Origin: Nitrospirota bacterium
GTDB lineage: Bacteria > JACPQY01
NCBI GenBank assembly: GCA_016180645.1
Contig: JACPAV010000025.1
Span: 1 to 64,000 of the forward strand
Direction of reading: 5' to 3'
DNA: 64,000 bases
This document shows, piece after piece, positions 402 through 44,500 of this stretch (the first letter of the stretch is position 1; every line of letters begins with the position of its first letter). A program made the translations under genes and the position numbers. Below the pieces are notes generated by a model. The model had not been told where the DNA came from and searched no databases. It was given only the letters and a program-made list of their open reading frames with translations.

Positions 402-459
402 GTCCCCTCCGCTTCGCTCCACGGACGACGGGATGAAGAATCATGAGGTCCTTGCGTCG
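402..459 (+). repeat. Repeat family A, copy 1 (forward, intergenic)
   Basis: Near-consensus copy of the about 57 bp element that opens with CCCCTCCGCTTCGCTCC and closes with GGTCCTTGCGTCG. It is joined directly to a family D palindrome. Confidence 0.9.
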
Positions 460-486
460 TTTGTTTCAGGTGAAACAAACGCGGAG
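459..486 (+). repeat. Repeat family D, copy 1
   Basis: Perfect short palindrome GTTTGTTTCA / TGAAACAAAC followed by GCGGAG, abutting the end of a family A copy. The same A+D junction recurs at 17.74 kb and 37.49 kb. Confidence 0.8.
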
Positions 487-611
487 TATCCCAGGGCTCT
501 CGCGTGGGAATTTGACTGACATCACCAAGACTTGACTGCGTTCCGTGGCACGCCATTGCGGATAGGGAGGGTATGGAAAAGACGAAACAGCCAAAGAGAG
601 AGAAACAAGTC

Positions 612-672
612 GGCGGGCCGGGTCGGCCATCGTGGCCGCTTCCGGCACCGCTTCGGCGTCCTGCCGGCGGGC
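612..672 (-). repeat. Repeat family C, copy 1 (reverse, intergenic)
   Basis: About 60 bp GC-rich element with the core GCGGTGCCGGAAGCGGCCA on the minus strand. Related copies lie at 23208-23266 and 25571-25626. Confidence 0.85.
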
Positions 673-3030: not shown

Positions 3031-3163
3031 GTCCCCTCCGCTCGTGGGCCTTGCAGGGCTTCGCGCAAGGCCCACGTCCACGGACGACCCCCTTCGGGGG
3101 CGGCGGGCGGAAGGGCATGGGGATCAGCGCCGCGAGATGAAGAATCATCCGGTCCTTGCGTCG
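3031..3163 (+). repeat. Repeat family A, copy 2: enlarged and nested
   Basis: The family A ends are present but split. A second palindrome (arms CGTGGGCCTTGC / GCAAGGCCCACG, about 3042-3075) interrupts the left part. A further insert of about 44 nt, CCCTTCGGGGGCGGCGGGCG onward, separates the middle from the right end. The same 44-nt insert occurs in the copy at 17637-17739. Confidence 0.8.
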
Positions 3164-4542: not shown

Positions 4543-4892
4543 ATCCTGTCGCCCAACGCCTTCTTCCAAAACAGTAACCCGCCACGTCTCGTGAACGTGA
4601 CGCTGGGCGGGTAACCACGTCTTCGTGATTCCCGCCCTCCCCTCTCAAAGCTATGAAGCAGTCGTACAAACGCTCAGCCCTCGCACGCCCCGCGGAGAGG
4701 TCTGTGCTGAAGGAGCACCATGCGCGCCCCCTGCGCTCCGCTCCGGGGACGACGGAAGGAATCGTTATGGGGTCCCTGCGTCGAGAGAAGACTCCCCCTT
4801 GGGGAAGGAGATAGTCCCGGGCGCGCGCGGGAGACGTGTTATGATTTGCGAACACAACTGGACATGAAAGAGAGCATGAAAGGAAGGCAAGG
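4543..4892. other. Intergenic region with a hairpin and a family A repeat
   Basis: No gene seen. Just after the preceding stop, ACCCGCC and GGCGGGT (about 4577-4614) can pair and may act as a terminator or processing site. A family A repeat fills 4723-4783. A ribosome site AAGGAAGGCAAGG precedes the next gene. Confidence 0.5.
4723..4783 (+). repeat. Repeat family A, copy 3 (variant, intergenic)
   Basis: A variant of A with GGGGACGACGGAAGGAATC in the middle and TGGGGTCCCTGCGTCG at the end. The same variant occurs at 23315-23373. Confidence 0.85.
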
Positions 4893-5973: not shown

Positions 5974-7305
5974 ATGAGCAAAGACGAATTGGGGCAGGCG
6001 GCTACAGCGGGAGCGACGGCCGGTGCGCCGGCGGAGCGGGACGGGCGACGCAAGGACCGTATCACCCCTCTGATCGTCGTCCCTGAAGCGGAGCGGAAGG
6101 GGAGCGGGGGGGCCAGGCGGCAGGAGCAGGTGTTTCAGGAAGGGTGGCTCGTGGCGGCGTCGATCGGCTACTACCGGGGGCAGGAGTCGGTCTCCCCGGA
6201 GGATCTGGGCCTCGAATGGAAAGGAGTTCCGGACTACATCCGGGATCTGGGACATGTCCGCGTGCTTCCCGAGGGGGCACTGAGGCCGCTGACGCGGGTG
6301 GAAGGGGATACGCGCCGGCAGGTGGGTGGCCTATCGCTACGGTTTCCGCTGACGCACGCGAGGTACGTTCCGGTGAGAGCCATCCCGATGCTGGAAACGG
6401 CGGTAGAGGAGTGCGAGAAGCGGTTCTGGGCGGGGATCGAGGTCTTTGCATCGGGTCTTCCCGGCTACAGGGAGGAAATGATACCGGTATTCCGAAAGGG
6501 TGCGGAAGTGATCCTTGTGGAGAGGGCGTCGTTGATTGCCGAGAAGGAAGGATTCGTGGAGCGGTACGTCGAGCGGATGGAGAAGCTGTTCCCGACGGCG
6601 GAGGTGATCGAGAAGCGGGCTTGGTTCAAGATCGACATGTTCCAGGTCCAGATCCCAAGCCGCATGGTGGTGGATCGACTGATTGAGGAAGGGACGTTGA
6701 CGGGACTCGGGGAACAGATCTCGCAGCGGCTTCAGGGGTCACTCATGAAACTGGACTTCTTCACGAAGAGCATGGAGATCCAGCTCGCCGCCCGGACGAT
6801 GGGGATCGTGCGCCGGATTACGGGGGCGGCGAGACGGGGACAGGGAGTGGGGCGACGCGACACGATGAGGCTCCTCGAGAAGGCGGATCGGCTGGACGTG
6901 CTGAACGCGCCCGGCTTGGAGGCGGTCCGGAGGGTCATCGAGGTCGTGCGGGGGAGAGCGGACGGCACGAGGCTGGTGCGGAACGTGGTTCGGGAGATGA
7001 GCGAGGCGCTCGTGGAGGAAGAAGCGTGGCTTGGGATGAAGCTGGGAGGTGTGGAGGATCTGCCGAGTTTTCTGCGGGATGACGTGGTGAGCGAGGTGCG
7101 GAGCGTTCTTGGGGAGGTTGAGGAGGACGGCGAGGAAGGTGGGAAGACATCTGCGGCTGTGGGGGGAGCAGAGGAGGAAGGCGACGACGAGGGATCGGCG
7201 GAGGGCGAGCATGTGGCGAATGAATCCGAGGGCACGCTGGAAGAGACGGGCGGGGGAGGATCCAATGGGGAGTGGGGAGCCGGGGATGGGGCGCGAGGAG
7301 AATGA
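5974..7305 (+). CDS. DUF3150-like protein of mobile elements
   Basis: A 443-aa protein starting at an ATG behind GGAGGCTTGAGAG. Residues 53-170 (LVAASIGYYRGQESVSPEDL, RVLPEGALRPLTRVEGDTRR) and the following helical region resemble DUF3150 proteins, which occur on plasmids and integrative elements next to replication and ATPase genes and have no known activity. Residues 25-43 are the translation of a family A repeat in reverse orientation (RKDRITPLIVVPEAERKG), an in-frame insertion near the N-terminus. From about residue 375 the tail is almost only Glu, Asp and Gly, suggesting a disordered acidic tail. No membrane span. The family assignment is moderate; the repeat insertion is directly visible. 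Confidence 0.65.
   Translation: MSKDELGQAATAGATAGAPAERDGRRKDRITPLIVVPEAERKGSGGARRQEQVFQEGWLVAASIGYYRGQESVSPEDLGLEWKGVPDYIRDLGHVRVLPEGALRPLTRVEGDTRRQVGGLSLRFPLTHARYVPVRAIPMLETAVEECEKRFWAGIEVFASGLPGYREEMIPVFRKGAEVILVERASLIAEKEGFVERYVERMEKLFPTAEVIEKRAWFKIDMFQVQIPSRMVVDRLIEEGTLTGLGEQISQRLQGSLMKLDFFTKSMEIQLAARTMGIVRRITGAARRGQGVGRRDTMRLLEKADRLDVLNAPGLEAVRRVIEVVRGRADGTRLVRNVVREMSEALVEEEAWLGMKLGGVEDLPSFLRDDVVSEVRSVLGEVEEDGEEGGKTSAAVGGAEEEGDDEGSAEGEHVANESEGTLEETGGGGSNGEWGAGDGARGE
6046..6102 (-). repeat. Repeat family A, copy 4 (reverse, in frame inside a gene)
   Basis: Reverse-orientation copy that begins CGACGCAAGGACCG and ends in GGAGCGGAAGGGG. It is read through in frame within the DUF3150-like protein. 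Confidence 0.9.
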
Positions 7306-17741: not shown

Positions 17742-17813
17742 GGTTTGTTTCACCTGAAACAAACGCGGAGGAATCGCGGGTGGGTGTGCGTGAATGTGTG
17801 CATGATTTCGCCT
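17742..17813 (+). repeat. Repeat family D, copy 2
   Basis: GTTTGTTTCACCTGAAAC then AAACGCGGAGGAATCG and a G/T-rich tail. It matches 37492-37558 over about 60 nt. It lies upstream of the start of the giant lipoprotein gene. Confidence 0.85.
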
Positions 17814-17856
17814 CTATAACGGGGTGCCGTGGCATGGACTTGCGAGAAGAGGGGGC

Positions 17857-20800
17857 ATGGCAACCAAGAGATGCCCGAAGACAGAGGGGGGCAAAGGGCT
17901 TGGAAAGTTCTCCATAACGGGAATCCCATGCCTTCAGCCCATCCTTGGTATTGTAAGTTTGATGGTCGCGGGTTGCGGAGGCGGCCTTCCGGACGTGGTC
18001 GTGCCGCTCAGGCCCGAGCGGGCGGGGATGCTGAGTCGCGTGGAATGGAACGTCGTGGATTCGGAAGGGGAGAGGGCGGAGGTCGATATCGTTCGCCTGG
18101 AGGATCCCAAGTCAGAAAACCGCGCCCCCTCCGCTTCGCTCCAGGGACGACGAGATGAAGAATCATGGGATCCTCGCGTCGAGGAGCGGAGCGGGCTGGT
18201 TCTCGGTGATGCTCTCAACCGAAAAGGTACTTATCTTGTGATGCAAGCGGCCGGCGTGCCGGTGGCCATTGTTGCCGGTCATCCGCCGGTCATCGAGTGG
18301 CTCGACCCGGACCATGACCGGGTGGACAGTCTCACGGAGCTCCTGCTGCAGACGGATCCGACGCAGGTGGATGTCACGGCGGGGTCGGACGCGGTGAGGA
18401 GGGTCGAAAGGGAATCCTACGCTTTTGCGTCGGACCTCCCGGTGAAGGAGCGGGGGAAAAAGGAAAAGTGGGTGTACGGCCGCGAGGGGCGTATTTTGTT
18501 CGAGAGCGGTGAAAGCGCCCGGGCGGATCTCGCTCGCTGGTGGAAGGGGCCGGGGAAAGACAATACGTGCGCGGAGGCAGCACCCGGAGACGCTTGGGAA
18601 ATGCACGAGGTGGGCTGCGACGTTGGCTCGTTGAACATGAGCGACGGTTGGCACACGGTCTGGGCGGAAGACGTTCTGACGTTTCGGATCGGGCGGCCGG
18701 TGCCGGCCACGGTGGTCAAGACTCGCGAAGACGGCATGGATTTTCTGTGCCAGGGGGATGAAAAACTATTCGGCCCAAGCCTGTGCTACGAGCAGTGCTC
18801 GGTCGGGGCCATCGGATTTCGGTCGTGCGGGAGCGTCGACTACGTCTCGACGGGTCCGGGGATCGCCGCGGTGCGCGTGCGATCGGTGGAGGCGGGCGGA
18901 GCCATCGACCTGACGGGAGCCACGGTGCCGTACCGGAGCGTGGCGCGGGCGGTGGGACGCCAAGGCCGCGAAGAAATTCGGTTGTCGCCCGGGCGGGGCG
19001 ATCTCCTCAAATACTGTGCGGATGGAAAAGGGGGTTGCGAGCCGACGAAGCCGCACACGGAGATCTTGCGGCTCTCCTGCAAGGCATCCGGGTGCAAGTA
19101 TTTCGTCAACACGGTTCAGGAGCGACGGGAGAGACTGTCGGCGCCACGGCAGCAGAGCCTCGTGGTCATCGACGGCGATGCGCCGACGGCGCAGTACACC
19201 CCCGAGACGGGATGGTTGGGCTCCTCCGGGACGTATGAAGTCAAGGGCCATGATGCCAGTTCCCCCCTGATCGGTTTGTACTACTGTGCGGCCGGAGCGG
19301 GGGCGCCGCCTTGTGAAGGCGACCCAGCCGACTACGACCGGCTGATTGCAGCGGAGGGTACGGGGGGCCAAACCGTGCAGGATGGGTACGGCTTTACGTT
19401 TACGTTTACGGGGGCGCTACTCCAGGAGTTGGCGACGCAGTCTTGCGCGGGGCTTGGAGCGTGCACGATGCGGCTGGCCGGCGTGGTCATGGACAGCGCG
19501 GGGAACCCCAGCGTGAAGATCGAGGCGGTGGTGAAGCGGGACGTGAGCGTGCCGATCGTAACGGCCTACGCGCCGGAGTACACGACGGAGGCCGCGGCCA
19601 CGGTGAAGTTCAGCATGACCGATACGGGCTCGGGACCGGCGAAGGTACGGCACTGCATGGCCGCGCAGGGGAGTGATACGTGCGAGCCGGCGACGGAGAC
19701 CAACGTGGACGAAACCGGCTCGGCCGAGGTCACGGTGGACTCGCGAAGCAGCGTGGACGTCGTCACGGTGGTGTACGAGGGCCTGGACCAACTGGGCAAT
19801 GTTTCGACGCGGGGGAGCGTCGTCCTGAAATTTGACGGCTCTGGACCGATGGTACAGATGCCGAGCCCGGGCGTGTACGGCCCGGGGCCGAAGGCGGTGT
19901 CCGCGACGGATGCATCGGGCGCGGGACTGGATCGGGTGGTGGTGTGCGTGGTGACCGTGGACATGAATGCATGCCCTGAAAAAGGGTATGCGGTCCAGCC
20001 GTCAAGCGGGGTGGATCCGCTGGAATTTACGGTGGACGTGACATGCCAGGAGGGGGATCTGTGCGCACGGTGGATCCTGGCGAAGGCGTTCGACCGGGCG
20101 GGGAACGCGGGGGCCTGGGCGAAAACGAAACTGAGCATCGATCAGAGGGCGCCCGCGATCACGATTGAAGGGCCGGCGGGTCAGCTCCTGGCCTCGAAAG
20201 CGGAATTCAAAATCACATCGGCGGACGGAACCGGAGAGAGCGGCGTGGCGAAGGTCACGTTCTGCACGGGGGCGAATGGGGCGTGCGACGCGGCATCCGG
20301 CCAGAACGTGCCGGCGGGTGGCCGCGTCACGCTGGAGGGAGACAAAGACGTCTTCAGCTGGCGATGGCTCTGCGTGCGGAGTTCCGACCGGATCGGGAAC
20401 GCGGCGAGCCGCTGCGTTCGGGCGGGATTCGACCATGTGACGGGGGCGTGCGCGATCGAGAATGGAGGAGGACGGTGGATGCGGTGGACGAGCGACGTGC
20501 CGCTGTCGAGCTGCGTCGAGCCGGGCCAGGATGAGTTTCTGGGGGACTCGGGGAAGGATCTTGTGCGCGAACCCTTCGGGGCGCGCGTGGCCTACTGCAT
20601 TACGAATGAAGGTGGGACGTGCGTGCCAAATGGGTCAAAGACCGTTGCGGTTGACGCGGCATCGCGGAGGGCGGCGATGCCAATCGGGGAATTCGGCTGC
20701 GGAGCGGGGGAGGGGTGTGCGAAGGCGGTGTTTTTCCGCATGGAGGACAAATTCGGCAACGTGGGGAAGGTCGAGTCCGGTGCGGTTCGGATCGACCTCC

Positions 20801-23266: not shown

Positions 23267-23314
23267 CATACACGATGGCGCGGACGCCCTCCTTTCATGG
23301 TCCCATACCGTCCT

Positions 23315-23373
23315 GGCCCCCTGCGCTCCGCTCCGGGGACGACGGAAGGAATCGTTATGGGGTCGCCGCGTCG
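23315..23373 (+). repeat. Repeat family A, copy 8 (variant) ending at a start codon
   Basis: Same variant as copy 3 (GACGACGGAAGGAATCG). Its terminal GCCGCGTCG lies 2 nt before the ATG at 23376. Confidence 0.9.
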
Positions 23374-23375
23374 GC

Positions 23376-26432: not shown

Positions 26433-27214
26433 AATCCCCCGGCTCCCGGATGAGACGCGAATGGGCTGCGATCGTTCTTGTGGTCGGATTGATTGTGATC
26501 ATGGAGAGGACGTCTTGGGGCTTCGCCACGAGCACGATGCGCGAGCGGGAGGTGAGTCTGGGGGCGCGAACAAGCCTGGAACGGGAGAACGTGCGGATGG
26601 CCGGCGTCGTGGGCGGCGCCGCAGTTCGGGCGGACCTCCCGGTTCACTACCTTGGAATCTTGGGAGAGGCAACCTACGGACTGACGAAGAGCCTCGACAT
26701 GGGCCTCAGCCTCGGAGCGGCGAAGATGAAAGGCCCCTGGGAGGAGGCGAAGGCGGACCAGGCCACGCTGATGACGGGCGGACTCCGCGTGAGGGGCACG
26801 GCCTGGTCGAATCATTCGGTTGAAGTGGGGTTTCTCGGAGACGTGCGATACCTGCCTTCGGTCGCGTTCAATGAAGACCTCCTCGTGGGGAATCTCCGGA
26901 TGCCGGGTCAGGTCGCGTTGAAGAACGTGTTTGCGACGGAACTCGGAACCGGCGTGACCTTCTGGCTGCGCACGGCCGGAAAGACCTGGGTGGCGCCGTA
27001 CGTGAGGGGATCCCTCCTGCCGATCGTGGCGCTTTCAGGGACGGTTCAGCAGGGGGAATTCGAAGCCAAGTCCGTTTCCAGACTCACGGCCGGACCGGAG
27101 AGGTTGTGGGGCGTGGCGACGGGGCTGGGAATCAATGTGAATCGGTTTTTCATAACGCCGGAGGTGCGGTTTTGGCCGATCGCCGGCGGCATCAAGTTGG
27201 AGATCCTGCTCTAG
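26429..27214 (+). CDS. Predicted outer-membrane beta-barrel protein
   Basis: A 261-aa protein starting at the edge of repeat B (AGGTGGTGGGATGA). A signal-anchor-like segment (AAIVLVVGLIVIMERTSWGFA, residues 13-33) is followed by a Ser/Gly/aromatic-rich region with alternating hydrophobic residues, for example GLTKSLDMGLSLGAAKM, VEVGFLGDVRYLPS and WVAPYVRGSLLPIVAL. It ends ITPEVRFWPIAGGIKLEILL, a typical terminal beta-strand pattern. I infer an outer-membrane barrel of about 8-10 strands, with the two upstream lipoproteins as partners. No family is recognised. The upstream in-frame extension to 26315 encodes the end of the previous gene's overlap and repeat B and is rejected. Confidence 0.65.
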   Translation: MKSPGSRMRREWAAIVLVVGLIVIMERTSWGFATSTMREREVSLGARTSLERENVRMAGVVGGAAVRADLPVHYLGILGEATYGLTKSLDMGLSLGAAKMKGPWEEAKADQATLMTGGLRVRGTAWSNHSVEVGFLGDVRYLPSVAFNEDLLVGNLRMPGQVALKNVFATELGTGVTFWLRTAGKTWVAPYVRGSLLPIVALSGTVQQGEFEAKSVSRLTAGPERLWGVATGLGINVNRFFITPEVRFWPIAGGIKLEILL

Positions 27215-27246
27215 GGGCGCACGGGTCGCTCAAAAGGAGGCTTGCG

Positions 27247-27783
27247 ATGAGAAGCACGAGGAAATGGCCGGTACGAATGGGAACGGCGGCGCTCTTGGGA
27301 TTGATCCTGGGCGGCTGCGCAACGACGAAGGGCGCGGGTCGGAAGGCGGACGACACGACGCTCTCCTGCCGGCAGGTGGGGGAAACCCTCCGCTGCTCGG
27401 GGCTTGAGGGGGGCTATGTGGAGTTTGCACCGGAACCTTTGGCCGTGGATCTGTCGGGCATGAAAAAGAAACGCGAGGCCTACGACGCCGGGTACCAGGC
27501 GGGCATGGAGAGCATGCACAAGATCCGGCAGGGCTACGAGGAGGGAGTGCGGTACGTGTTCAAGCGGCCGGTCTGGCAGAAGGTGAAGCTGCCGGCGGAG
27601 GTGAAGGACGGGGTGTTTCATCCGGAGCGGGAGGTCTACGTGCTCGTTGAACCGGGCCGCTACGAGCTCAAGGGGGGAGCGGTGTCCCCTCCGCTTCGCT
27701 CCACGGACGACGAGATGAAGAATCAGAGGGTCCTTGCGCCGGATGCGCCCTCTCCTGCGAGCGGAGCGGAAGGGCACGAATAG
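27247..27783 (+). CDS. Small lipoprotein with a repeat-derived C-terminus
   Basis: A 178-aa protein with a textbook ribosome site (AAAGGAGG, 7 nt before ATG 27247) and a clear lipobox, LILGGC (Cys about 22). The mature part has a Cys pair (LSCRQVGETLRCSG) and a helical, charged middle (KKKREAYDAGYQAGMESMHK). Residues 145-165 are a family A repeat in the first frame (SPPLRSTDDEMKNQRVLAP), and only 13 residues follow, so the C-terminus appears to have been rewritten by the insertion. Last gene of the exported-protein run from 17.9 kb. Function unknown; an envelope role next to the barrel protein is likely. Confidence 0.75.
   Translation: MRSTRKWPVRMGTAALLGLILGGCATTKGAGRKADDTTLSCRQVGETLRCSGLEGGYVEFAPEPLAVDLSGMKKKREAYDAGYQAGMESMHKIRQGYEEGVRYVFKRPVWQKVKLPAEVKDGVFHPEREVYVLVEPGRYELKGGAVSPPLRSTDDEMKNQRVLAPDAPSPASGAEGHE
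27683..27740 (+). repeat. Repeat family A, copy 10 (in frame at a C-terminus)
   Basis: Read as SPPLRSTDDEMKNQRVLAP close to the end of the small lipoprotein. Confidence 0.92.
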
Positions 27784-31023: not shown

Positions 31024-32751
31024 TCAGAAAGGTGCGGCTGCGCACCCGAAGCCGACCGATTCTGTCTTCTCGCGTGAGGTGGGGTCCTCCATCTGGGCCG
31101 GGGAGGACAGCGCTTGCCTCGGCGGAGCCAGCGGAAACTTCACCGGGTCGTACTCGACAATCTGGTCGCTCACGTCGTACCCTAGTACCCCCAAGTACCC
31201 CCCGAAGCAGTAGATCTTCCCGTTGGCCGGCCCCACACAGGACAAATCGCTCCGCGCCGACGGCAGCTTGGCCGATTTCGTTGCAACGGTATCACCGGCC
31301 GGGTCGTACTCGACAATCTGGTCGAAGCGGCTGCCGCCGATCCCCCCCAAGCAGTAGATCTTCCCGTTGGCCGGCCCCGCACAGGACAAATCGCTCCGCG
31401 CCGATGGCAGCTTGGCCGATTTCGTTGCAACGGTATCACTGGCCGGGTTGTACTCAACAATCTGGTCGCTCACGTCCTGCCGTAGCACCCCCAAGGACCC
31501 CCCGAAGCAGTAGATCTTCCCGTTGGCCGGCCCCACACAGGACAAATCGCTCCGCGCCGACGGCAGCTTGGCCGATTTCGTTACAACGGTATCACCGGCC
31601 GGATCGTATTCGACGATCTCTTCATTGCCTACCCCCCCGAAGCAGTAGATCTTCCCGTTGGCCGGCCCCGCACAGGACAAATTGCTCCGCGCCGACGGCA
31701 GCCTGGCCGATTTCGTTACAACGGTATCGCTGGCCGGGTTGTACTCGACGATCTCGTAGACGCCCATGTGCGAAGTGCCCTTCAGCTCGGTCCCCCCGAA
31801 GCAGTAGATCTTCCCGTTGGCCGGCCCCGCACAGGACAAATCACCCCGCGCCGACGGCAGCTTGGCCGATTTGGTTGCCACGGTACGCCTGGCCGGGTCG
31901 TACTCGACGATCTGGTCTTCATATTCGAAGTAGCCAGCACCGCCGATCCCCCGCCCCCCGAAGCAATAGATCTTCCCATTGGCCGAGCCCGCACAGGACA
32001 AGTCCTCCCACCCGGCCGGTAGCTTGGCAACAACGGGCAGCGCGCAAGCGTCGTCGATCTCTCCGTCGCAATCGTTGTCCTTGCCGTCACAACTCTCGGC
32101 TGAAGGAGTGCCCGGCGTGGCATTGCATTCTGTGTCGGTCCCATCAGTCTTACACTTAAGAGTTCCGGCTTTCGCGCATTCCCCTACACCCACTGTACAG
32201 GAGGGGCCAATGTCGAACCCTTCGTCGACCTTTCCGTCGCAGTCGTTATCCACGTCGTCACATACCTCAGGATTACCGGGAAATGCCTTTCCTTTCGAAT
32301 CGTCACAGTCTCCCTGCTTGAAGCTGGAGTTTTGTCCACCACAGATATCCGTACTTCGTGGATTGCCACTCCCAAACCCATCTCCATCGCTGTCAACAAA
32401 ACCAACGCAGATCTCGATACGTTCAGACCGCTTTGGCCCATTGAAAGCGTGCAAGCGATACCTGCCCCCTTCACCACTTCCGTCCCGCCAACGGGTTGTA
32501 TCTCTTGGAAGACTTGCTATAGGGGAGAAGTTATTGCCTTGCCTCTCGGTCGATTTCTCGACAACAAAACCATCTTCAAAGTTTGAATCATCCTTCCATG
32601 TCAAAATGACGCTTCCTTGTTCAAAAGATGCGCCAAGGTCACTGGGTGGATCGGGCGTTGGATCGGCACCGAACATTTCAGCCAGCCCGCATGAGGGGAG
32701 TGCAAGTACAATGAGGTACAGAAAGGTTGTCCTGATCCCGCCTCTCAACAC
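31024..32751 (-). CDS. Lipoprotein with FN3-like domain, MopE motifs and Kelch repeats
   Basis: A 575-aa exported protein. I start it at GTG 32751, just after the end of the upstream gene, which gives TTFLYLIVLALPSCG as a lipoprotein signal; the open frame extends further but would overlap that gene. After the signal come a GADPTPDPPSDLG linker, an FN3-like domain (LTWKDDSNFEDGFVVEKSTE), the Ca-binding-like FVDSDGDGFG, and two MopE motifs (PEVCDDVDNDCDGKVDEG and CDGKDNDCDGEIDDAC). Six about 50-residue Kelch-type units follow, each with LSCAGPANGKIYCFGG and QIVEYDPA...VATKSAKLPSAR. The near-identity of the units suggests recent duplication. Its N-terminal half is a paralog of the lipoprotein at 34019-35689. 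Likely surface-exposed binding protein. Confidence 0.82.
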   Translation of the reverse strand: MLRGGIRTTFLYLIVLALPSCGLAEMFGADPTPDPPSDLGASFEQGSVILTWKDDSNFEDGFVVEKSTERQGNNFSPIASLPRDTTRWRDGSGEGGRYRLHAFNGPKRSERIEICVGFVDSDGDGFGSGNPRSTDICGGQNSSFKQGDCDDSKGKAFPGNPEVCDDVDNDCDGKVDEGFDIGPSCTVGVGECAKAGTLKCKTDGTDTECNATPGTPSAESCDGKDNDCDGEIDDACALPVVAKLPAGWEDLSCAGSANGKIYCFGGRGIGGAGYFEYEDQIVEYDPARRTVATKSAKLPSARGDLSCAGPANGKIYCFGGTELKGTSHMGVYEIVEYNPASDTVVTKSARLPSARSNLSCAGPANGKIYCFGGVGNEEIVEYDPAGDTVVTKSAKLPSARSDLSCVGPANGKIYCFGGSLGVLRQDVSDQIVEYNPASDTVATKSAKLPSARSDLSCAGPANGKIYCLGGIGGSRFDQIVEYDPAGDTVATKSAKLPSARSDLSCVGPANGKIYCFGGYLGVLGYDVSDQIVEYDPVKFPLAPPRQALSSPAQMEDPTSREKTESVGFGCAAAPF

Positions 32752-34018: not shown

Positions 34019-35689
34019 CTATTGCCCACCTGTGGTCGTCTTGAGGATCGTGCCGCCTAACCCTACCGCGTAGCCCGTGGTCGCGTCCACCGGGAAGTGG
34101 ACGGCATAGAGATGGTTGCTCGTTCCCGATGTCTGGGCGGTCCAAGTGGCGCCGCCGTCGGTCGTCTTGAGGATCTTGCCCGAATCCCCCACGGCGTAGC
34201 CCGTCGTCGCGTCCACAGGGAAGTGGACGGTGTAGAGCCAGTTCGTCGTCCCCGAGGTCTGGGCTACCCAATTGGCGCCGCCATTCGTCGTCTTGAGGAT
34301 CGTGCCATTCCCCCCCACCGCGTAGCCTGTGGTCACGTCCACAGGGAAGTGGACGGCACTGAGGTTGGAGCTCGTTCCCGATGTCTGGGCGGTCCAGGTG
34401 GCGCCGCCATTGGTCGTCTTGAGGATCGTGCCACCCACCCCCACGGCGTAGCCTGTGGTCGTGTCCACCGGGAAGTGGATGCCATAGAGGTAAAAGCCCG
34501 TTCCCGATGTCTGGGTCCAGGTGGTGCCGCCATCGGTCGTTTTGAGGATCGCGTTGCTTGGCCCCACGGCGTAGCCGGTCGTCGCATCCACAGGGAAGTT
34601 GACGGATTCGATCCCTTCGCTCGTCCCCGAGGTCTGGGCGGTCCAGGGCAGGGGGAGGGTCATCGCGCTCTTTTCCGTGGTGTTCGGATCCTCGTTGCCC
34701 TTTTCGTCCACGGCGCGGGCGACGAAGTAGTAGGTGGCGCCAGCGGTGTAACCCGTTGCGCGGTGGGAGGTGGCGCCGGCGGCGGTCGTGTACGTGGCGG
34801 TGAACGAACGCCCGCACGTTCCTGACGTGTTGGATTGGCAGATGCGGTAGATGATGTTAGCTGGCGCGCTCACATTGTCCGTCGCAGCCGCCCAAGCGAG
34901 GTCGATTTGGCTCCTAGAGACCCCCGTAGCCGAGGATAGGCCGGCAAAAGTTGGGGGTGTCGTGTCGCAGGCGTTGTCCGTTTGCCCGTCGCAGTCGTTG
35001 TCTTTGCCGTCGCAGATTTCGGCCACCGGGATCACCTCGCCGCTGCACGTTCCCCACTGGCCGCCCGAGCAGGTCTGGGAGCCAGCCTTGCAGACACCCG
35101 TGCCTTTCGTTTCGGAGGCACCACTGTAACAGCTTTGGATCAACCCGTCGGTGCAGGCACATCCCTCGTCCACACTCGCGTCGCAGTCGTTGTCTTTGCC
35201 GTCGCACTTTTCAGGATTCCCAGGGAAAACGTCACTATCGGAGTCTTTGCAGTCTCCGCCCACCAATAGAAGTGAGTCCGGCCCTGGGCAGGCCTCATAT
35301 GTCCCCGGCCACACGCCATACCCATCTCCGTCCCGGTCCTGGAAAAATAGACACCGCTCGGCCGCCGAAGATTTCTTGTTGCCCCTGACAGCATACACTC
35401 GGTAGCGGGCACCCTGAATTGTCTCTTCGGAAAATTCGGTACTGTTCTCAGGCAAACGGGCAAGAACTGAAAACCCTTCGCCTTGCGCTTCCGTGGATTT
35501 TTCTACGACATACCCTTTCTCGAAGTCCGAGTTGTCATTCCAATGCAGTCTTACCACGCCATCCTTATAGTCGACCCTGAAACCATCTGGCCCATCCGGT
35601 GTCGGATCCGCTCCAACCAGTTCCCCCACAGCCCCGCAGGATTGCACGCCGAGTGCGATCCCACAAAGAGCGAACAGCTTATATATCAT
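34019..35689 (-). CDS. Lipoprotein with FN3-like, MopE and BNR/YCF48-like repeats
   Basis: A 556-aa exported protein. ATG 35689 follows GGGGGA and gives the signal KLFALCGIALGVQSCG with a lipobox. It shares its N-terminal layout with the Kelch lipoprotein: GADPTPDGPDGF, LHWNDNSDFEKGYVVEKSTE, DRDGDGYG and two MopE motifs (CDGKDNDCDASVDEGC, CDGKDNDCDGQTDNAC). A second FN3-like domain follows. Then come six about 43-residue propeller repeats of the BNR/YCF48 kind (WTAQTSGTS, FPVDATTGYAVG, ILKTTDGGATW). So two paralogs share the membrane-proximal part but carry different propellers. The open frame extends 92 codons upstream, but that part lacks a signal and overlaps nothing meaningful. Confidence 0.83.
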   Translation of the reverse strand: MIYKLFALCGIALGVQSCGAVGELVGADPTPDGPDGFRVDYKDGVVRLHWNDNSDFEKGYVVEKSTEAQGEGFSVLARLPENSTEFSEETIQGARYRVYAVRGNKKSSAAERCLFFQDRDGDGYGVWPGTYEACPGPDSLLLVGGDCKDSDSDVFPGNPEKCDGKDNDCDASVDEGCACTDGLIQSCYSGASETKGTGVCKAGSQTCSGGQWGTCSGEVIPVAEICDGKDNDCDGQTDNACDTTPPTFAGLSSATGVSRSQIDLAWAAATDNVSAPANIIYRICQSNTSGTCGRSFTATYTTAAGATSHRATGYTAGATYYFVARAVDEKGNEDPNTTEKSAMTLPLPWTAQTSGTSEGIESVNFPVDATTGYAVGPSNAILKTTDGGTTWTQTSGTGFYLYGIHFPVDTTTGYAVGVGGTILKTTNGGATWTAQTSGTSSNLSAVHFPVDVTTGYAVGGNGTILKTTNGGANWVAQTSGTTNWLYTVHFPVDATTGYAVGDSGKILKTTDGGATWTAQTSGTSNHLYAVHFPVDATTGYAVGLGGTILKTTTGGQ

Positions 35690-37429: not shown

Positions 37430-37491
37430 GCGACCATCGGGGATACGAAGAAGCCGCTGGAAATGAATTGTTATGGGGTTCCTGCGTCGTG
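37430..37491 (+). repeat. Degenerate family A copy joined to family D
   Basis: Only the right half is recognisable (GAAATGAATTGTTATGGGGT, then CCTGCGTCG); it runs straight into the D palindrome as in copies 1 and 17637. Confidence 0.6.
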
Positions 37492-37558
37492 GCTTGTTTC
37501 ACCTGAAACAAACGCGGAGGAATCGGGGCGGGGTGTGTGTGAATAGACTCATCGTTAG
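37492..37558 (+). repeat. Repeat family D, copy 3
   Basis: CTTGTTTCACCTGAAACAA then ACGCGGAGGAATCGGGGCG; matches 17742-17813. It lies about 100 nt upstream of the T4SS operon. Confidence 0.85.
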
Positions 37559-37655
37559 AGAGGGTTCGGACGGTTGGTTGGCACCGGATTGCAATAGGGA
37601 AGGCGTGACGAATGAAGAACAAACGATTGCGGTCAGAAAGAGAGGTCAGACAGTC

Positions 37656-37958
37656 ATGAACAAGAACAGCAAGGACGACAAAACAAAGAGGGCCCGGATG
37701 CCTTTTCCATTCCCGATGCTGGGCGGAAGCCAGTCGGGCGTATCGGATCTCGAGGAGCTTTACGTCGACGCCCTCGCGGAGGGCGGCATGTGCGAAGCAC
37801 CGGAGCAGGATCGAACGGTGGAAATGCTGTCGATCGGCGGAACGACGGTGGTCCGGCGGGTGGGTCGGCGGTCGAGAGTCATCGTCCCCTCCGCTCCGCT
37901 CCACGGACGACGAGATGAAGAATCATGGGAACCTTACATCGAGGTCGATCTGGCGTGA
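37656..37958 (+). CDS. Small protein at the head of the T4SS operon, with repeat-derived C-terminus
   Basis: A 100-aa protein of unknown function. The start ATG 37656 lies 9 nt after AGAGAGG. The N-terminus is lysine-rich (KNSKDDKTKRARMPFPFP), the middle acidic (LEELYVDALAEGGMCEAPEQ). Residues 77-95 are a family A repeat read in the second forward frame (VPSAPLHGRRDEESWEP), and the gene ends six codons later. Its stop overlaps the GTG of the traE-like gene (GTGA), showing coupling. In F-type operons TraL or pilin normally precede TraE, but this protein has no membrane span and is not a convincing match to either. Confidence 0.6.
   Translation: MNKNSKDDKTKRARMPFPFPMLGGSQSGVSDLEELYVDALAEGGMCEAPEQDRTVEMLSIGGTTVVRRVGRRSRVIVPSAPLHGRRDEESWEPYIEVDLA
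37884..37940 (+). repeat. Repeat family A, copy 11 (in frame at a C-terminus)
   Basis: Consensus copy read in the second forward frame, close to the stop of the 100-aa protein. Confidence 0.93.
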
Positions 37959-38632
37959 GGACGAACTTGGGATCCCTGCTCGTTGCGCTCCGTGGTGGAA
38001 AGGCCGCGGGCGAGATGAAGCCCCATGGGGTCTCTGCGCCGAAACCGGCCCGGAAAAGCGCGGGGCGCTTCTTCGAGGTCTGGGGCGAGGCGGAGACGCG
38101 GTACGAGCACATGCGAGGACTCACCATTCTTTCCCTTCTGGTCGCGCTTGCGGCCGTGGGCCTGGCAGCCGTGCGGAAAGACCGGGTCTATGTGGTCCCG
38201 GGAGCTGCGGGGGTGACCAGACTCGGCGACGAATCGGCGGGACCGGCCTATGCGGTCGACGTGGCGAGGAGTTTTCTCACACAGTATGCGTCCTATCGGC
38301 CCGAGACGATCGAGGGGAACGTCCGATCGGCGCGGACGTACTTGGAGGAGCATCTCCTGGAACCTTTCGACAAGGCGACGATCCGCCAGGTGGAGCGGGC
38401 GAAGAGTCTGTCGCTGTCGCAGCATTTCTGGATCCGGCAGGAAACGGTGGAGCCGACGGGAAAAGATTACAAAGTGGTTCTGGTGGTGTGGCAGGAACTA
38501 TGGAGTCCGCGGGGCAAGGAGTGGGCCGGGACGTACCGGTACGAGATCAGTTTGAAGAAGGTGCCGGTCGCCGGACGGGATTTCCGGGGACTGGCGATCG
38601 TCAACATCGCCCAGCGACAGGAGGCGGCATGA
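37955..38632 (+). CDS. traE: TraE-like T4SS pilus-assembly protein
   Basis: A 225-aa protein like F-plasmid TraE (VirB5/VirB8-position, inner-membrane pilus-assembly factor). A single N-terminal span (LTILSLLVALAAVGLAAV, about 52-69) is followed by a periplasmic domain with YAVDVARSFLTQYASYRPET, NVRSARTYLEEHLL and WQELWSPRGKEWAGTYRYEI, the typical TraE pattern. I start at GTG 37955, coupled to the previous stop; ATG 38015 is an alternative that gives a more usual TraE length of about 205 aa. The extra N-terminal part (37966-38041) is a degenerate family A repeat. It ends overlapping the TraK start (ATGA). Confidence 0.78.
   Translation: MRTNLGSLLVALRGGKAAGEMKPHGVSAPKPARKSAGRFFEVWGEAETRYEHMRGLTILSLLVALAAVGLAAVRKDRVYVVPGAAGVTRLGDESAGPAYAVDVARSFLTQYASYRPETIEGNVRSARTYLEEHLLEPFDKATIRQVERAKSLSLSQHFWIRQETVEPTGKDYKVVLVVWQELWSPRGKEWAGTYRYEISLKKVPVAGRDFRGLAIVNIAQRQEAA
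37966..38041 (+). repeat. Degenerate family A repeat at the TraE N-terminus
   Basis: CGAGATGAAG, CCATGGGGTCTCTGCG and a TTGCGCTCC block are in the family A order, with an insertion between them. Read in frame if GTG 37955 is the true start. Confidence 0.55.
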
Positions 38633-39540
38633 ACGGGATGAGTGTCTGGCGGCGGATCCGGTGGGACGTGATCTTAGCCGTGGGCCTGGCGGCAGGGCTG
38701 ACGCGGGGAGCGGCGTTCGCAGTGGATCTCTCGGTACAGCCGTGGAGCCCGGGCAGGACGATCTACGTTCCTCTTCAGGTGGGCAATCCGATGAGCGTGA
38801 AATTTCCCGAAACCCCGAAGCAGTGCGCCGTCCACGACGAACAGCAGCTCACGGTGGAGTATTTCGGGAGGGAGGCCATCTTCAAGGCGCTCAGTTCTTT
38901 CAGCGCGAGCATCTTCTGCATGGACGTGAAGCAGAACACCTACGCGCTCAAAATGGAAACGACCCCCTACGCGGGACCCACGATGATCCAGATCGTCCCG
39001 GAGGAGGGTGCGCCGGTCGGCGCAAAAAGCGATGGGGGCCACGCGTTCTACGGACCCCTCAAGAGACTGCTCCTCGCCATGTACCATCAGCAGCCGCTTG
39101 CGGGCTACGAGATCGAGGTGACGAGCCGGGTGATCGTGGGATCGGAACCGGGATCGCTCCATGTTCGGCAGGTCATGCGGTACGTCTCCGACGTGAGCAA
39201 CCTGATCGGATACGTATTGGAAATTGAGAACCGTCTGCAGGGCCAGGCGCAGGCCGTGGCACCGAGGATGCTCAAGGTTCCGGGGAAGGTCGCGGCGGGC
39301 GTACGGGACATGTATCTCGCGCCGGCGGGGCCGGCGCCGACGCCCCCTCCGCTGCGCTCCGGGGACGATGAGTGGAAGAATCACGGGGTCTTTGCATCGC
39401 CGGAGGCGTACCTGGGTTATCCGACGAAGACGGTGGCGTGGATGGTGGTGGACCGCCGGGCGCTGCCGGAGGGACTCGACAAGGGGACGGACACGCTGCC
39501 GTTAACGGTGAATCCCGAGACGCGCAAGGACGGAGACTAG
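38629..39540 (+). CDS. traK: TraK-like T4SS secretin-type protein, with an in-frame repeat
   Basis: A 303-aa exported protein like TraK/VirB9 of F-type systems, which forms the outer-membrane core with TraB and TraV. A signal peptide (VILAVGLAAGLTRGAAFAVD) is followed by the TraK-like beta-domain: VPLQVGNPMSVKFPETPKQC, LTVEYFGREAIFKAL and TTPYAGPTMIQIVPEE. A family A repeat is read in frame at residues 237-257 (PPPLRSGDDEWKNHGVFAS), inside the second half and followed by conserved-looking sequence (YLGYPTKTVAWMVVDRRALP). So a core secretion protein carries an internal insertion. The start ATG 38629 follows AGGAGG and overlaps the traE stop. Confidence 0.78.
   Translation: MNGMSVWRRIRWDVILAVGLAAGLTRGAAFAVDLSVQPWSPGRTIYVPLQVGNPMSVKFPETPKQCAVHDEQQLTVEYFGREAIFKALSSFSASIFCMDVKQNTYALKMETTPYAGPTMIQIVPEEGAPVGAKSDGGHAFYGPLKRLLLAMYHQQPLAGYEIEVTSRVIVGSEPGSLHVRQVMRYVSDVSNLIGYVLEIENRLQGQAQAVAPRMLKVPGKVAAGVRDMYLAPAGPAPTPPPLRSGDDEWKNHGVFASPEAYLGYPTKTVAWMVVDRRALPEGLDKGTDTLPLTVNPETRKDGD
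39341..39399 (+). repeat. Repeat family A, copy 12 (in frame inside TraK)
   Basis: Read in the first forward frame as PPPLRSGDDEWKNHGVFAS. Confidence 0.92.
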
Positions 39541-39567: not shown

Positions 39568-41103
39568 GTGGAAGAAGGAGAAAGGGGCAAGACGGGTGGC
39601 GACGCGGGATCGATGCCGGGATCCTATGATTCTTCTCCTCATCGTCTCCGGAGAGAAGCGGAGGGGGCGCCGGTCGGTTCGGGAGCGGAGGATGGAACCG
39701 AGATTAGCGGGTCGTGCGCTGTCGGAGAGAGCAACCCGGGACCTGCGTCGGTGGCGGCGCAGGATCCCCATAACTATTCCCATCGCCGTCCCCGGAGCAA
39801 CGCAGAGTGGACGGAAAGAATGGACCTCACACTGAAAACCCACGGGCTTTCACGCCGGCAGGCGGTCGTGGGCGCAGGTCTTGTGCTGGCGGCCCTTATG
39901 GCGATCATCACGGCCGGGCGGGCAACCGGAGAGGCGCCGCCACTGGACGTTCTGAAGGAGGGCGTCGTAGGCGGTGCCGAGGCGCAGCCTACGGGGAAGG
40001 CTGTCCAAGCCGCGGTGAATTTGCCGCCCGTGCTGGGCGGCGCGGAGGGAATTGAGGGAGAGACGCCGGCGAAGCCGGAGGAGGATCCGGTAGCACGGTG
40101 GCGAGCGATGGGCGCCGAGGCTGAAGCGGCGGGAGGCGAGCAGAGGGCGGTAGTAAGAGCCGGAAGTGGGTTCGACTCCGCTCAGAATGCGGATGCGCTG
40201 ATCAACCGGGAGAAAATGAAGGATATGGAGCGACGCCTTGAGGAGTCGGAGGAGTCGAGGCACCAGCTGGAACTCTCCCTCATGAAGGAGATCGCCGAGC
40301 TGAAGAACAAGGCGGAGGGTGGGCGATCCATCACAACCATTTCAGGGAGCGGCGGGGCGTCCGGTTCGGAAGGCCACGCAGGCCACGAGGGCATGGCGGA
40401 GGCGCGACCGGTCGGGAGAGGGAAAATTATTGTGAACCCGAGCGCGGGCGCGGCTTCGGACGAGAGCGGCGTGTACTTTCCGAGCGGAAGTTTCGCGGCA
40501 GGCGTGCTGCTGACGGGTGCGCTCGCCCCGGATACGGATCAGCAGCTGCCGTACCCGCTGCTCGTGCGTCTGCAGGGTTCGTTCGTGGGACCGAACCGAT
40601 TCAAGATTCCGGCGCACGGGTGTTTCGCGCTGGGGCGGGCGAGCGGCCGGGCGGTGGCGAGGCGCGCGGAGATCCAGGTGTTTCAGATGAGCTGCGTCTA
40701 TGAGGACGGGACGTCGATGGACCGCAAGATCAACGGCTGGGTGTCGGGCGAAGACGGCATCCTGGGGGTGCCGGGTATTGTGGAGAACCATGACGGCCTG
40801 TACATCGCGGGGACGATTGCCGCCCGGACCGCGCAGGCGTTTTCGCAGGCGATTGCGGCGTCGCAGCTGACGACGCAGCTCACGCCGCTGGGCGGCGCTC
40901 AGCAGAAGGTGGACGGAAGTCTCGTGTCTTACGGGTTTTCGAGCGCGGGCGCGGGTTTCTTCGACTCGCTCGCAAAGATTATGGAAGAAAGGATCCGTCG
41001 CAACGTTCCGGTCATCAGAGTGGAACCGGGAAAGGAGATTCATGTCGTACTGGCTCAAGGTTTCGAGGGGATGCCCCCCGATCTGGCTCTTCCTGTGCAC
41101 TAG
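39568..41103 (+). CDS. traB: TraB-like (VirB10-type) T4SS channel protein
   Basis: A 511-aa protein like F-plasmid TraB, which spans the envelope and gates the secretion channel. GTG 39568 follows AGGAAGG. Residues 11-34 and 63-81 are two reverse family A repeats (SYDSSPHRLRREAEG; AQDPHNYSHRRPRSNAEW), so the cytoplasmic tail is largely repeat-derived. A membrane span (VVGAGLVLAALMAIITAG, about 96-113), a Pro/Ala-rich linker and a coiled coil (MKDMERRLEESEESRHQLEL) follow. The VirB10/TrbI domain has GVYFPSGSFAAGVLLTGALA, FVGPNRFKIPAHGCFALG and GVPGIVENHDGLYIAGT. The C-terminus overlaps the next gene by 62 nt. Confidence 0.84.
   Translation: MEEGERGKTGGDAGSMPGSYDSSPHRLRREAEGAPVGSGAEDGTEISGSCAVGESNPGPASVAAQDPHNYSHRRPRSNAEWTERMDLTLKTHGLSRRQAVVGAGLVLAALMAIITAGRATGEAPPLDVLKEGVVGGAEAQPTGKAVQAAVNLPPVLGGAEGIEGETPAKPEEDPVARWRAMGAEAEAAGGEQRAVVRAGSGFDSAQNADALINREKMKDMERRLEESEESRHQLELSLMKEIAELKNKAEGGRSITTISGSGGASGSEGHAGHEGMAEARPVGRGKIIVNPSAGAASDESGVYFPSGSFAAGVLLTGALAPDTDQQLPYPLLVRLQGSFVGPNRFKIPAHGCFALGRASGRAVARRAEIQVFQMSCVYEDGTSMDRKINGWVSGEDGILGVPGIVENHDGLYIAGTIAARTAQAFSQAIAASQLTTQLTPLGGAQQKVDGSLVSYGFSSAGAGFFDSLAKIMEERIRRNVPVIRVEPGKEIHVVLAQGFEGMPPDLALPVH
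39600..39669 (-). repeat. Repeat family A, copy 13 (reverse, in frame inside TraB)
   Basis: Reverse copy with a slightly expanded right end (GACGCGGGATCGATGCCGGG), translated in the TraB N-terminus. Confidence 0.82.
39757..39809 (-). repeat. Repeat family A, copy 14 (reverse, variant, in frame inside TraB)
   Basis: Reverse variant copy (GATCCCCATAACTATTCCC, then CCCCGGAGCAACGCAGAG), translated in TraB 50 residues after copy 13. Confidence 0.75.
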
Positions 41104-41491
41104 CCTGGCGCTCTCGGCGTCCGTCGGCTGTTCCGCGCGGGCGCGAATGAGGACGCTGGGCGAGACGTACCGGGAGGCCCTTTCGGAAGGGACGCGCAAA
41201 GAGGGGCGGGCTTACCTGGACCAACTCCAGGTGGAGCGCCCGGCCGGGTTTGCCGAGCCGTTTACGCCCGTGAGAAGGAGCGAGGAGAGCCAAGCGTACT
41301 GGGTCGAGCCGTATTTTGCCGGGGAGGACGAGGCGCACGACGGCCACTGGATGGTGATCATCGTGAAAGGGAGTACATGGAATTCCGACCTGGTGCTGCA
41401 GAAGGGTCTGCTGGCGCTGCCGGGACCCACGATGCCGAAGCCTCCGAGAGCGATGGCGGACGAAGGGACGATGAACGGGGGCATCAAGTAA
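41042..41491 (+). CDS. Small lipoprotein at the TraV position
   Basis: A 149-aa protein with a signal peptide and lipobox (FLCTSLALSASVGCSA, Cys about 30), encoded directly after traB and overlapping it by 62 nt. In F-type systems this is the place of TraV, the lipoprotein that completes the TraB-TraK-TraV core. The length fits, but I see none of the paired cysteines of classical TraV, so only position and lipoprotein nature support that identity. The mature part (TYREALSEGTRKEGRAYLDQ; YWVEPYFAGEDEAHDGHWM) is not a family I recognise. Start ATG 41042 follows GGAAAGGAG. Confidence 0.62.
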   Translation: MSYWLKVSRGCPPIWLFLCTSLALSASVGCSARARMRTLGETYREALSEGTRKEGRAYLDQLQVERPAGFAEPFTPVRRSEESQAYWVEPYFAGEDEAHDGHWMVIIVKGSTWNSDLVLQKGLLALPGPTMPKPPRAMADEGTMNGGIK

Positions 41492-41559
41492 GAGGTGAAG
41501 GCAAAGGTGAGAAGGCAAAAGTGGGCGAGGGAGAAAGCGAGAATATCAACGTGCAGGAC

Positions 41560-44500
41560 ATGAAGAATCTGAAGAAACGGAAGGGCGCTTGGGCAGGCTC
41601 ACGACCTCATAAGGCGCTGAGTCAATCGAAGGGAGCGCAACCGAGCGGCGCCAGGACGGCACAGCCGTCCGGCCCTGCCTGCCGCGACGCCTCCGCGTCC
41701 TGCGGCGCAGGCAGGGACTCGCTGGACGCGACGAAGCGGGGCGTTCCCGTCTTGAGTTTCCTCCTGGCCGCGGCGGCGCTCTGCGGGACGGCGGCGTGCG
41801 CCCCGCCGGAGCCGGCGACGTACATCATCTATATCGAGGCGGAGAAGTCGCTCACGTCGGCGGTGGAGAGATTTGCGCCGGTGGCACGGATCGACCGGGG
41901 GGAGAGCGTGCTGGACGACGGCGTACCGGTGGGCTTCCAGATCGGCGAGGACGGCGCGTCGTATGTGTCGCTGGGATTCGAAGGTCGGCTTGGGAATGCG
42001 GAGGACCCGGTCACTCTGACGCTCCATGACCGGAGAGTGGATCTCATCGGCGTGAAGCTCATGCGGGCCAGGAACAGTGAGGGGGTCCTGACGCGGGACG
42101 GCGAGGCGACGGCGTTTCCCGATTCGGACGAGGACGGCGTGGAAAATCTCATCGAGGCGTATCTGGGGACGGATCCCTTCTCGAAAGGGCAAAGGCCGCC
42201 CGAGGACCAGGCGCAAAAGATTGCGGAGGATGTCTTTCCGGAACTGGCTTCTCAGCGAAAGGCGCGTAGCACCGGGAATACGGGAGGGGCTGGGGCCGGC
42301 GACCCCGGTGCGGGGGTCGATACGAAAATCACGACAAAACCTTCGAAGCCCGTGTCATCGGATGCCGTAACAATTCGGTTCATCGCGGTGGGGAAGGCGG
42401 AGGGGGCGAGGTTGGAATGTTCGGTGGACGACGGTGCGTTTGGGGAGTGTGTCTCGCCGCTGACGCTTACGGGCCTCGCGGAAGGGCCGCACCGGTTGCG
42501 GGTCAGGGCGGTCGCCGGCGACGGCGAGGTGGATGCGACGCCGGCGGAGGCCGTCGTCGTCGTGGACCGCACGCCACCCGCGACGAAAATCACGGGGACC
42601 CCATCGGGCGTGAAGAACGAGGGGAAAGTGTCTCTCCAGTTTGAGTCGACGGAGGCGGGGAGCGCATTCCTGTGTTCCGTGGATCAGAGCCCGGTGCAGG
42701 CGTGTTCGCCCGGTCAGGGAGTTTCAGTCGGATCGGACGGCCGCCACACCATTCGGGTCTTCGCCATGGATGCCGCGGGAAACCGGGATCCTGTAGGAGC
42801 GGAGGCGGTTGTGGATGTGGATCTGACGCCGCCGACGGTAAAGTGGCTTGCCGCGCCGGCCGCCGTGACGAACCGCACGGAGGTAACGGTGACGGCTGCC
42901 GCGGAGGACCGCGCGGGAGTCGCTGTGATCGAGTGCGCGGTGCGCGGTGCTGCCGAGAAGGATCAGTCGCCCCCTCCGCTGCGCTCCACGGACGACGAGA
43001 TGAAGAATCATGGGGTCTTTACGTCGCCCCGGTGGGAGGCCTGCGGGTCGGGCATGATGGTCCGGGGACTGGCGGAGGGCGCCTTCGTGGCCATGACCCG
43101 GGCGAAGGATCGGGCGGGAAACGTGAGTGCCGTTCTCGAAACAGCTTTCATCGTGGACCTCACGGCGCCGGCCGTTCGCATCAAGGAGGGGCCGGCCGAG
43201 GTCAGCGCGATGAAGCAGGTGTCGTTCGTCCTGGAAGGCTCGGAGGATGTAGAGACCTTCCGCTGCGGAATGGACGAAGAGTGGTCGGCCTGCGGGGGTA
43301 CCTGGAGCGTGCCGAGCGTGCCGGAGGGGCGCCACTTGGCGCAGGCCGAGGGCGTCGACAAGGCGGGTAACGTGGGCCGAAGCGAGGCGTACGCCTTTAC
43401 GATCGATCGATCGCCGCCGGAGATCCGGGTCGTGTCCGGGCCGGTGGATGGGACCAACCAGTCGTCGGTTGTCTTTCGGATGGGGATTACAGATGCGCTT
43501 TCGGGTGGGGCAAGGCTCGAGTGTTCCGCGGACGGCGGGGCGTTCAGCGATTGCCTGGAAAAGGGCGTGACGTTTTCAAGCCTGACGACCGGAGCGCACG
43601 TGCTCGCCGTGAGGGCGGCGGATGGAGCGGGGAATGCGGCGGCAAGCAAATTTACGTTTGTTGTGGACCGGACGGCGCCGACGGTGACGGCCTCCGTGGC
43701 GGCCGGCTGGCTCAAGTCGCCGGGGGCGGTGATGTTCTCGGCGGCCGACGACAGCGGCGTCGCCCCGGCGGTCGACTACTGTTTCGCTCTGGGGGCAGGG
43801 TCCTGTGTGCCGTCGGTTCGCGCGGTCGATGGAGTGGGAGAGATAAGCTGCGAGGCCGGGGCGATCTGCGAGGGAAACGTGCATTTCACGGCGGTGGACC
43901 GGGCGGGGAACCGCTCGGAGGTTGTGCGCGTAAGCGTCAAGGTGGATGCGCAGGGGCCTATGATCGGGGGGGATGTCGCGTTCACGATGATGGGGACGCG
44001 AGGCGCGAGTCTGAGCGCGCGATTCGATGACGCGGGTGTAGGCGAAGTGAAAGACTGTCTTCTTGAGTTTGCGGACTCCGCGGGCGTGACGAGTCAAACG
44101 AAAGCGGCGGTGGGTGGAGTGTGTTCGGTCTCGCGCGCATGCGAAAGAAAAGGACCACTCGTCTTGGGTGTCGTGGCGCTCGATGCGGTAGGGAACGGAT
44201 CGGCCCTGGTGGAAAGGACGATGACCTGCGATTCGGCGCCGCCCGCGACAAGTATTACGTTTGGGCCGGACGTGAAGGAGTCCCCCGGGAGGTTCATCGA
44301 CGGCGGGCCCGGGTTCACGACGAGACGCTACCCGTTCGCGGTGACGGACGGGGACGGTGTGGGGCCACGGGAGGTGCGCTACTGGGTGACGGGCATGAGC
44401 GGGGAGGCGAGCTGCTTGTGGACGAGCCCGGGAGGCTGCGGTTTCGAGGTTGCGTGTTTGGGTTCGGTTTGCCTCGGAACGGTCCGGTTCTACTCGGTCG

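Follow-up and report, generated by a model that had tools for sequence, protein, structure and literature searches.

The first 64,000 nt of a contig from a Nitrospirota bacterium (contig C25; this whole stretch is hereafter the window) contain a short repeat that lies both between genes and within unrelated protein genes. This raises the question of what kind of DNA can enter genes without breaking their reading frames and, if it is mobile, how it moves. The left-end motif of the repeat is matched 17 times in the window against 0.95 expected, and the right-end motif 16 times against 3.7 expected. A covariance model, R1, built from an alignment of 27 element copies, recovers, within the window, 13 full-length copies with strong scores, one that has diverged and several that are partial or interrupted. 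The count of about 18 in an initial annotation of this DNA is right if full, diverged and partial copies are taken together. The elements are:

402-459, plus strand: intergenic copy, the 57-nt unit being 403-459; R1 83.5 bits
3079-3163, plus strand: interrupted element, with a truncated copy inside at GGACGAC and the outer halves on either side; R1 match at 3087-3160
4726-4783, plus strand: intergenic copy, neither side coding; R1 74.2 bits
6046-6103, minus strand: copy in frame near the N-terminus of a DUF3150 protein gene (5974-7305, plus strand); R1 65.5 bits
7329-7386, minus strand: intergenic copy; R1 74.0 bits
17637-17739, plus strand: interrupted element, of which 85 nt match 3079-3163 at 95%
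18124-18181, plus strand: copy in frame +0 of a giant lipoprotein gene (17824-23193), peptide APSASLQGRRDEESWDPRVE; R1 85.2 bits
21267-21324, plus strand: copy in frame +1 of the same giant lipoprotein gene, peptide SSPPLRSTDDGMKNHSVLAS
23316-23373, plus strand: copy immediately before the codon (23376) at which an FG-GAP lipoprotein probably starts
24713-24770, plus strand: copy in frame +1 of the FG-GAP lipoprotein gene (23184-26363)
27684-27741, plus strand: copy that makes up the tail of a small lipoprotein (ORF 27106-27783) at its C-terminus
37460: partial or interrupted element matched by R1
37884-37941, plus strand: copy that makes up the C-terminus of ORF 37473-37958
38009-38040, plus strand: element remnant, 3' half; R1 25.4 bits
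39342-39399, plus strand: copy in frame +1 of a TraK-like gene (ORF 37915-39540), peptide TPPPLRSGDDEWKNHGVFAS
39611-39668, minus strand: copy between TraK and TraB, before the likely TraB start (39821)
39755-39812, minus strand: diverged copy that adjoins the likely TraB start on its upstream side
42969-43026, plus strand: copy in frame +1 of an Ig-like (Big) lipoprotein gene (41377-45912), peptide SPPPLRSTDDEMKNHGVFTS

Five of these copies (18124, 21267, 24713, 39342 and 42969) lie in one open frame with coding potential on both sides. In the DUF3150 gene the coding potential spans copy 6046, and there is a good RBS upstream of the ATG at 5974. With copies 27684 and 37884 this makes eight in-gene copies where at least ten had been reported; the rest are not supported. 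The peptides of the window copies had been read correctly. The two copies assigned to TraB (39611 and 39755) are upstream of its likely start, and in the FG-GAP lipoprotein copy 24713 is within the gene while copy 23316 precedes the probable start. All three of these copies sit where there is no coding potential, and the start codons are likely downstream. Copies 23316-23373 and 39755-39812 end a few bases from a probable start codon, and they may serve as leader sequence or affect translation at the adjoining start.

A profile search of the host genome (4.72 Mb, 65 contigs) and of relatives, as had been suggested, shows how widely the element is spread. In the host, R1 finds at least 131 copies at E <= 2.2e-5, a threshold to be read with the roughness of R1 E-values in mind, and these are on nearly all contigs. 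The host sequence was read in stretches picked around strong R1 matches (~0.6 Mb), and the sample of copies therefore favours strong ones. The one same-family relative, G001 (3.3 Mb), has few copies, with about 11 matches, five of them at E <= 1e-4 with stricter filters; judged by Tgt, G001 is the same as, or near-identical to, JACPQY010000024.1 (Nitrospirae bacterium NC_groundwater_665). R1 found no element copies in 58 further genomes, and exact element patterns went unmatched in the genomes of 84,980 other species and in viral contigs. A blastn search against plasmids found no element match, and Rfam contains no family that covers the element.

To see which reading frames the element takes, 100 copies with their flanks were scored for codon usage in six frames. 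Same-frame coding on both sides with the element open was found in 23, and none of the 23 has a stop in that frame (p = 6e-4, given how often a random frame of the copies is open). In 11 copies same-strand coding is in different frames on each side, which may mean either neighbouring or disrupted genes, in three the flanking coding is on opposite strands and in 63 at least one side is non-coding, most copies lying between genes. The frames used within genes are -2 (11 copies), +1 (6), -0 (3), +0 (2) and -1 (1). The third forward frame (+2) had been described as closed by a stop and never used; its use is indeed 0/23 genome-wide, but 70% of copies have it open. The peptides of five window copies are alike (SPPLRSTDDEMKNHGVLAS), as would be expected if the repeat were a conserved protein motif or domain. 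To this explanation we give virtually no probability, because five of the six reading frames are used, both orientations occur and the majority of copies lie between genes or run antisense to the gene beside them. The repeat is one of DNA, as was first proposed.

The host genes are diverse. Copies are found in the genes for tRNA-guanine transglycosylase (tgt), SufD (sufD), an SDR and a molybdopterin oxidoreductase, and two copies each in those for MmgE/PrpD, a sigma-54 activator and a BcrA/D-DUF2229 CoA-enzyme activase; glycogen phosphorylase and an MMPL protein are further hosts. Genome-wide the hosts are largely chromosomal housekeeping genes, and not the conjugation genes to which the initial annotation drew attention. 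As 57 is a multiple of three, an insertion within a gene adds 19 codons without a frameshift. The 19-residue peptides are presumably translated, and the intact reading frames suggest that the host proteins are functional; the TGT match spans the insert with E = 1.9e-152.

Ortholog alignments, also proposed earlier as a check, identify empty sites. From the W of EWARR to the A of ALFGI the Tgt protein has 32 residues in the host and 13 in G001, and a short spacing of 14 residues is found in 46 of 81 sequences. The host Tgt is longer than that of G001 by exactly 19 residues, placed exactly on the element, and the sigma-54 activator is likewise longer by exactly 19 aa; PDB relatives of both proteins are without the segment. 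In the same comparison, for which G001 is the one relative, the excess is 21 aa in PrpD copy 2, 20 and 19 aa in the CoA activase and 23 aa in the oxidoreductase, values that appear to agree with 19 aa within alignment slack, and 11 aa in PrpD copy 1, which is off from 19. In tgt the net insert is 57 nt, with no target duplication. G001 has in-frame copies of its own in other genes (glycoside-hydrolase-like and SdhB-like, identified by eye). The empty sites in G001, together with its own copies, indicate that the unit has been inserted since the two genera parted.

These sites bear on the possibility that the repeat is a static REP-like functional sequence, kept by selection for protein binding, mRNA stability or termination, with the in-gene copies being incidental. 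Such roles have been credited to REPs (PMC3733652), and the majority of copies here are intergenic, as this would require. The absence of the unit from conserved genes of the sister genus at the tested sites, the nested and tandem insertions and the restriction to one lineage all argue against it, and we consider it quite unlikely. The same evidence is compatible with a secondary function, which intergenic copies may have.

The boundaries of the unit can be set from insertions of one element into another, because joining the flanks of the inner copy restores the interrupted outer element. The unit so defined comprises columns 2-58 of R1 and is exactly 57 nt, or 19 codons, in agreement with the length first reported. 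Seven nested copies (for example L070:13464-13521, L074:10768-10825 and L088:2501-2558) share one internal cut, after GGACGA or its equivalent, and one orientation. An inner unit resembles its outer unit no more than any other two copies resemble each other, and several units have nearer relatives at other sites, which suggests that the nested insertions were independent events. Amplification of a composite was rejected as their origin since the likeness of inner and outer units is only average, the exception being the two 85-nt composites. Tandem arrays with a 57-nt period, head to tail, are present on contigs C2, C3 and C13. Mobility had been inferred from copy number and scattered orientation, and the empty ortholog sites, nested insertions and tandem arrays now support it.

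Copies might also multiply by recombination or segmental duplication of existing ones, without transposition. The two 85-nt composites, which are 95% alike, and the tandem arrays could be produced in this way. The flanks beyond the junction, however, show no similarity or association, and in the two cleanest cases the insertions in housekeeping genes are exactly 57 nt. Since most copies have no shared flanks, recombination can cover only a minority of them, and we regard it as a very unlikely explanation of the whole.

On the left of the unit 42% of copies have YCG, where the genome figure is 5.6%, a target preference that is not fixed. The nested insertions run against this preference of the other copies, cutting the outer element's tag at CGA^CG. 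A symmetric target, with CGR on the right instead, was rejected, there being no enrichment (4/79). If the element were a conventional MITE that a double-strand (DDE) transposase moves with a 3-bp YCG target duplication, this would account for the presence of YCG on both sides of the unit and for the correlation between them (-1 vs 56, z = 5.4). The CG on the right, however, is 97-100% conserved and the YCG on the left is present in 42%, and they are therefore not equal duplicates. The right YCG is also paired with sequence inside the element, terminal inverted repeats are absent and the empty site in tgt has no YCG at the junction. Target-site duplication, which the initial annotation had proposed to look for, was rejected on the inequality of the two sides and on the tgt site, and a MITE of this kind seems to us unlikely.

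The pairing of the right end leads to the secondary structure of the element. On the strand opposite to the one first described, the GC-rich half (columns 24-2) forms a hairpin, T-CCCC-GRA-GC-GNA-GC-GRA-GGGG-R, in which pairing is kept better than on the given strand (98% vs 35% for the column pair 2-24, and 95% vs 78% for the pair 6-20). The loop is GNA in 88% of copies, and the variable columns 8, 13 and 18 are the middles of the three GNA triplets. Single-copy folding energies by standard methods are unremarkable. An inner hairpin, ATGA/TCAT, was rejected because pairing is kept in only 74%, and a GGAC/GTCC pairing because it is absent from the covarying pairs. Directly 5' of the hairpin is a CRYCG tag (columns 29-25 on the opposite strand), and a tag in this position is also seen in REPs and at IS200/IS605 ends (PMC8266576, PMC5934647).

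The strongest covarying column pairs of all are 27-56 (A-T or G-C) and 28-55 (C-G or T-A), such that CGRYG at columns 25-29 pairs with CRYCG at columns 54-58. Guide base 27 also covaries with the flank base at -1, which is not part of the element: T at -1 goes with A at 27 and C with G in 50 of the 62 copies with a pyrimidine at -1 (Fisher p = 3.2e-7, from the same copies that built R1, flank bases beyond column 1 being outside the model). For the other flank and junction positions tested against base 27 the next lowest p was 0.09. About one third of the flanks match the guide fully. The guide thus pairs with both presumed cleavage sites, one of them in the flank, as in IS200/IS605-type elements.

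The explanation that we favour, and consider probable, is a minimal non-autonomous, REP-like and guide-directed element of 57 nt, moved by a single-strand transposase supplied in trans and inserted without target duplication. Within this explanation its kinship with the Rickettsia palindromic elements is one of kind. We infer the single-strand mechanism, the strand and the enzyme, and the element may be active at present. Activity probably resides on the strand opposite to that first described, on which the unit would read 5'-CGRYG - ~24 nt - CRYCG - hairpin (T CCCC GRA GC GNA GC GRA GGGG R)-3'. An HUH/Y1 (TnpA-REP-like) enzyme would bind the tagged hairpin on single-stranded DNA. The CRYCG tag would act as a guide by pairing with CGRYG at the 5' end of the unit and with CGR in the 3' flank past the hairpin, and this pairing would set both cuts and free the 57-nt unit. 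The freed unit could then join a new site that offers a matching YCG, and selection would later remove copies that bring in stops or harm the protein. Two features fit this proposal poorly. Cleavage would fall 5' of CGR when read along the hairpin strand, a polarity opposite to that of IS608, in which the motif lies across the junction, and the nested insertions use CGA^CG.

There are seven Y1 transposase genes in the host genome, and only the locus on contig C34 has element copies near, at about chance level. At this locus (L109, G000:C34, 6213-8577) two adjacent Y1 transposase genes lie behind a WYL regulator, with element copies, one of them nested, 0.6-0.8 kb downstream. We note it as a candidate enzyme locus.

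The Rickettsia palindromic elements (RPEs) are palindromic sequences of ~150 bp (Ogata et al. 2000, reviewed in PMC10969869). The parallel with RPEs drawn in the initial annotation is apt for what the element does, since both are dispersed selfish DNA found between genes and in frame within many unrelated functional genes (PMC10969869). It does not extend to the sequence family: the element here is 57 nt and not ~150 bp, is GC-rich, has a short mixed hairpin and belongs to an unrelated lineage, and its guide/target covariation is without counterpart in the RPE descriptions consulted.

A further likeness is to the CGTC-tagged REPs, which include RPE-4 and RPE-6 of R. conorii (Di Nocera et al. 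2013, PMC3733652). These have 8-9 bp stems that begin with AT pairs, a loop of 4-5, a CCA-like tail and mostly head-to-head dimers, and are without a known transposase (PMC3733652). As in that family, the hairpin bears a CGTC-type tag at its foot (CGTCG, CATCG or CGCCG in this element) and there are many copies, some within genes, with no linked transposase. It departs from the family description in its 4-5 bp stem plus GRA/GRA, its GNA loop and the absence of a CCA tail, as well as in its monomeric 57-nt unit, in a second end that is complementary to the guide and in its head-to-tail arrays. Through its tag the element is nevertheless related in kind to the REP superfamily, of which RPE-4 and RPE-6 are members (PMC3733652).

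GTAG REPs are moved by TnpA-REP/RAYT, and their tag helps to select the cleavage site (PMC8266576). The element shares with them a short guide-like tag 5' of the hairpin, and its host encodes Y1 proteins, but the tag is different, and no RAYT set between element copies as in a REPtron was seen here. In IS608, of the IS200/IS605 family, a guide beside the hairpin pairs with the cleavage and target sites, and a changed guide leads to a changed target (PMC5934647). The present element also has a guide next to the hairpin that pairs with cleavage or target sites, although it is gene-less and has one hairpin for both ends. Coxiella QMITEs are 150-400 bp, have terminal inverted and direct repeats and hit functional genes at 3' ends only (PMC5896051); like them, the element is non-autonomous and sometimes adds in-frame segments.

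In-frame palindromic insertions were long held to be peculiar to Rickettsia, with scattered REP cases elsewhere. Intragenic REPs outside Rickettsia being already known (PMC3733652), the kind of element is known; the novelty lies in the lineage, in a frame-neutral unit with a fixed length of 57 nt and in the covariation of guide and target in an element with a single hairpin. It is conceivable, though we hold it only tentatively, that the element stands for a new class of minimal elements that transpose as single strands. In such a class a single tagged hairpin would do for both ends, the tag would read the landing site by base pairing, with the cut on the other side of the motif from that in IS608, and a frame-neutral 57 nt would give rise to 19-residue segments in conserved proteins lineage-wide. 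The same logic would then explain the movement of CGTC-tagged REPs and of some RPEs. As CGTC-type repeats come with no attached transposase, their mode of movement has been an open question. Exact empty sites, a defined unit and guide variation matched by the target make the mechanism testable with short oligonucleotides and a few candidate enzymes. Here mobile DNA adds 19-residue segments to conserved enzymes of an uncultured environmental lineage, a natural experiment in how much insertion a protein tolerates.

Several other features were observed in the window. Three parS-like palindromes, TTTGTTTCAnnTGAAACAAA, lie at 460-479, 17744-17763 and 37493-37512; in each case the right end of an element copy, whether full or partial, is no more than a few bases away. 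A second dispersed repeat, ATSATCCCACCACCTGMAAC, has 14 copies, mostly in inverted pairs with a spacing of 45-66 nt (840/902, 2787/2853, 7446/7494, 36454/36514, 54393/54438 and 56007/56072). The genes at 31143-32028 and 34026-34615 have long tandem repeats within them (75-nt-core and 126-nt units) and probably encode repeat-built surface proteins. An array of 12 tRNA genes (Rfam) is found at 62346-63923 on the minus strand, on the same contig as the conjugation genes.
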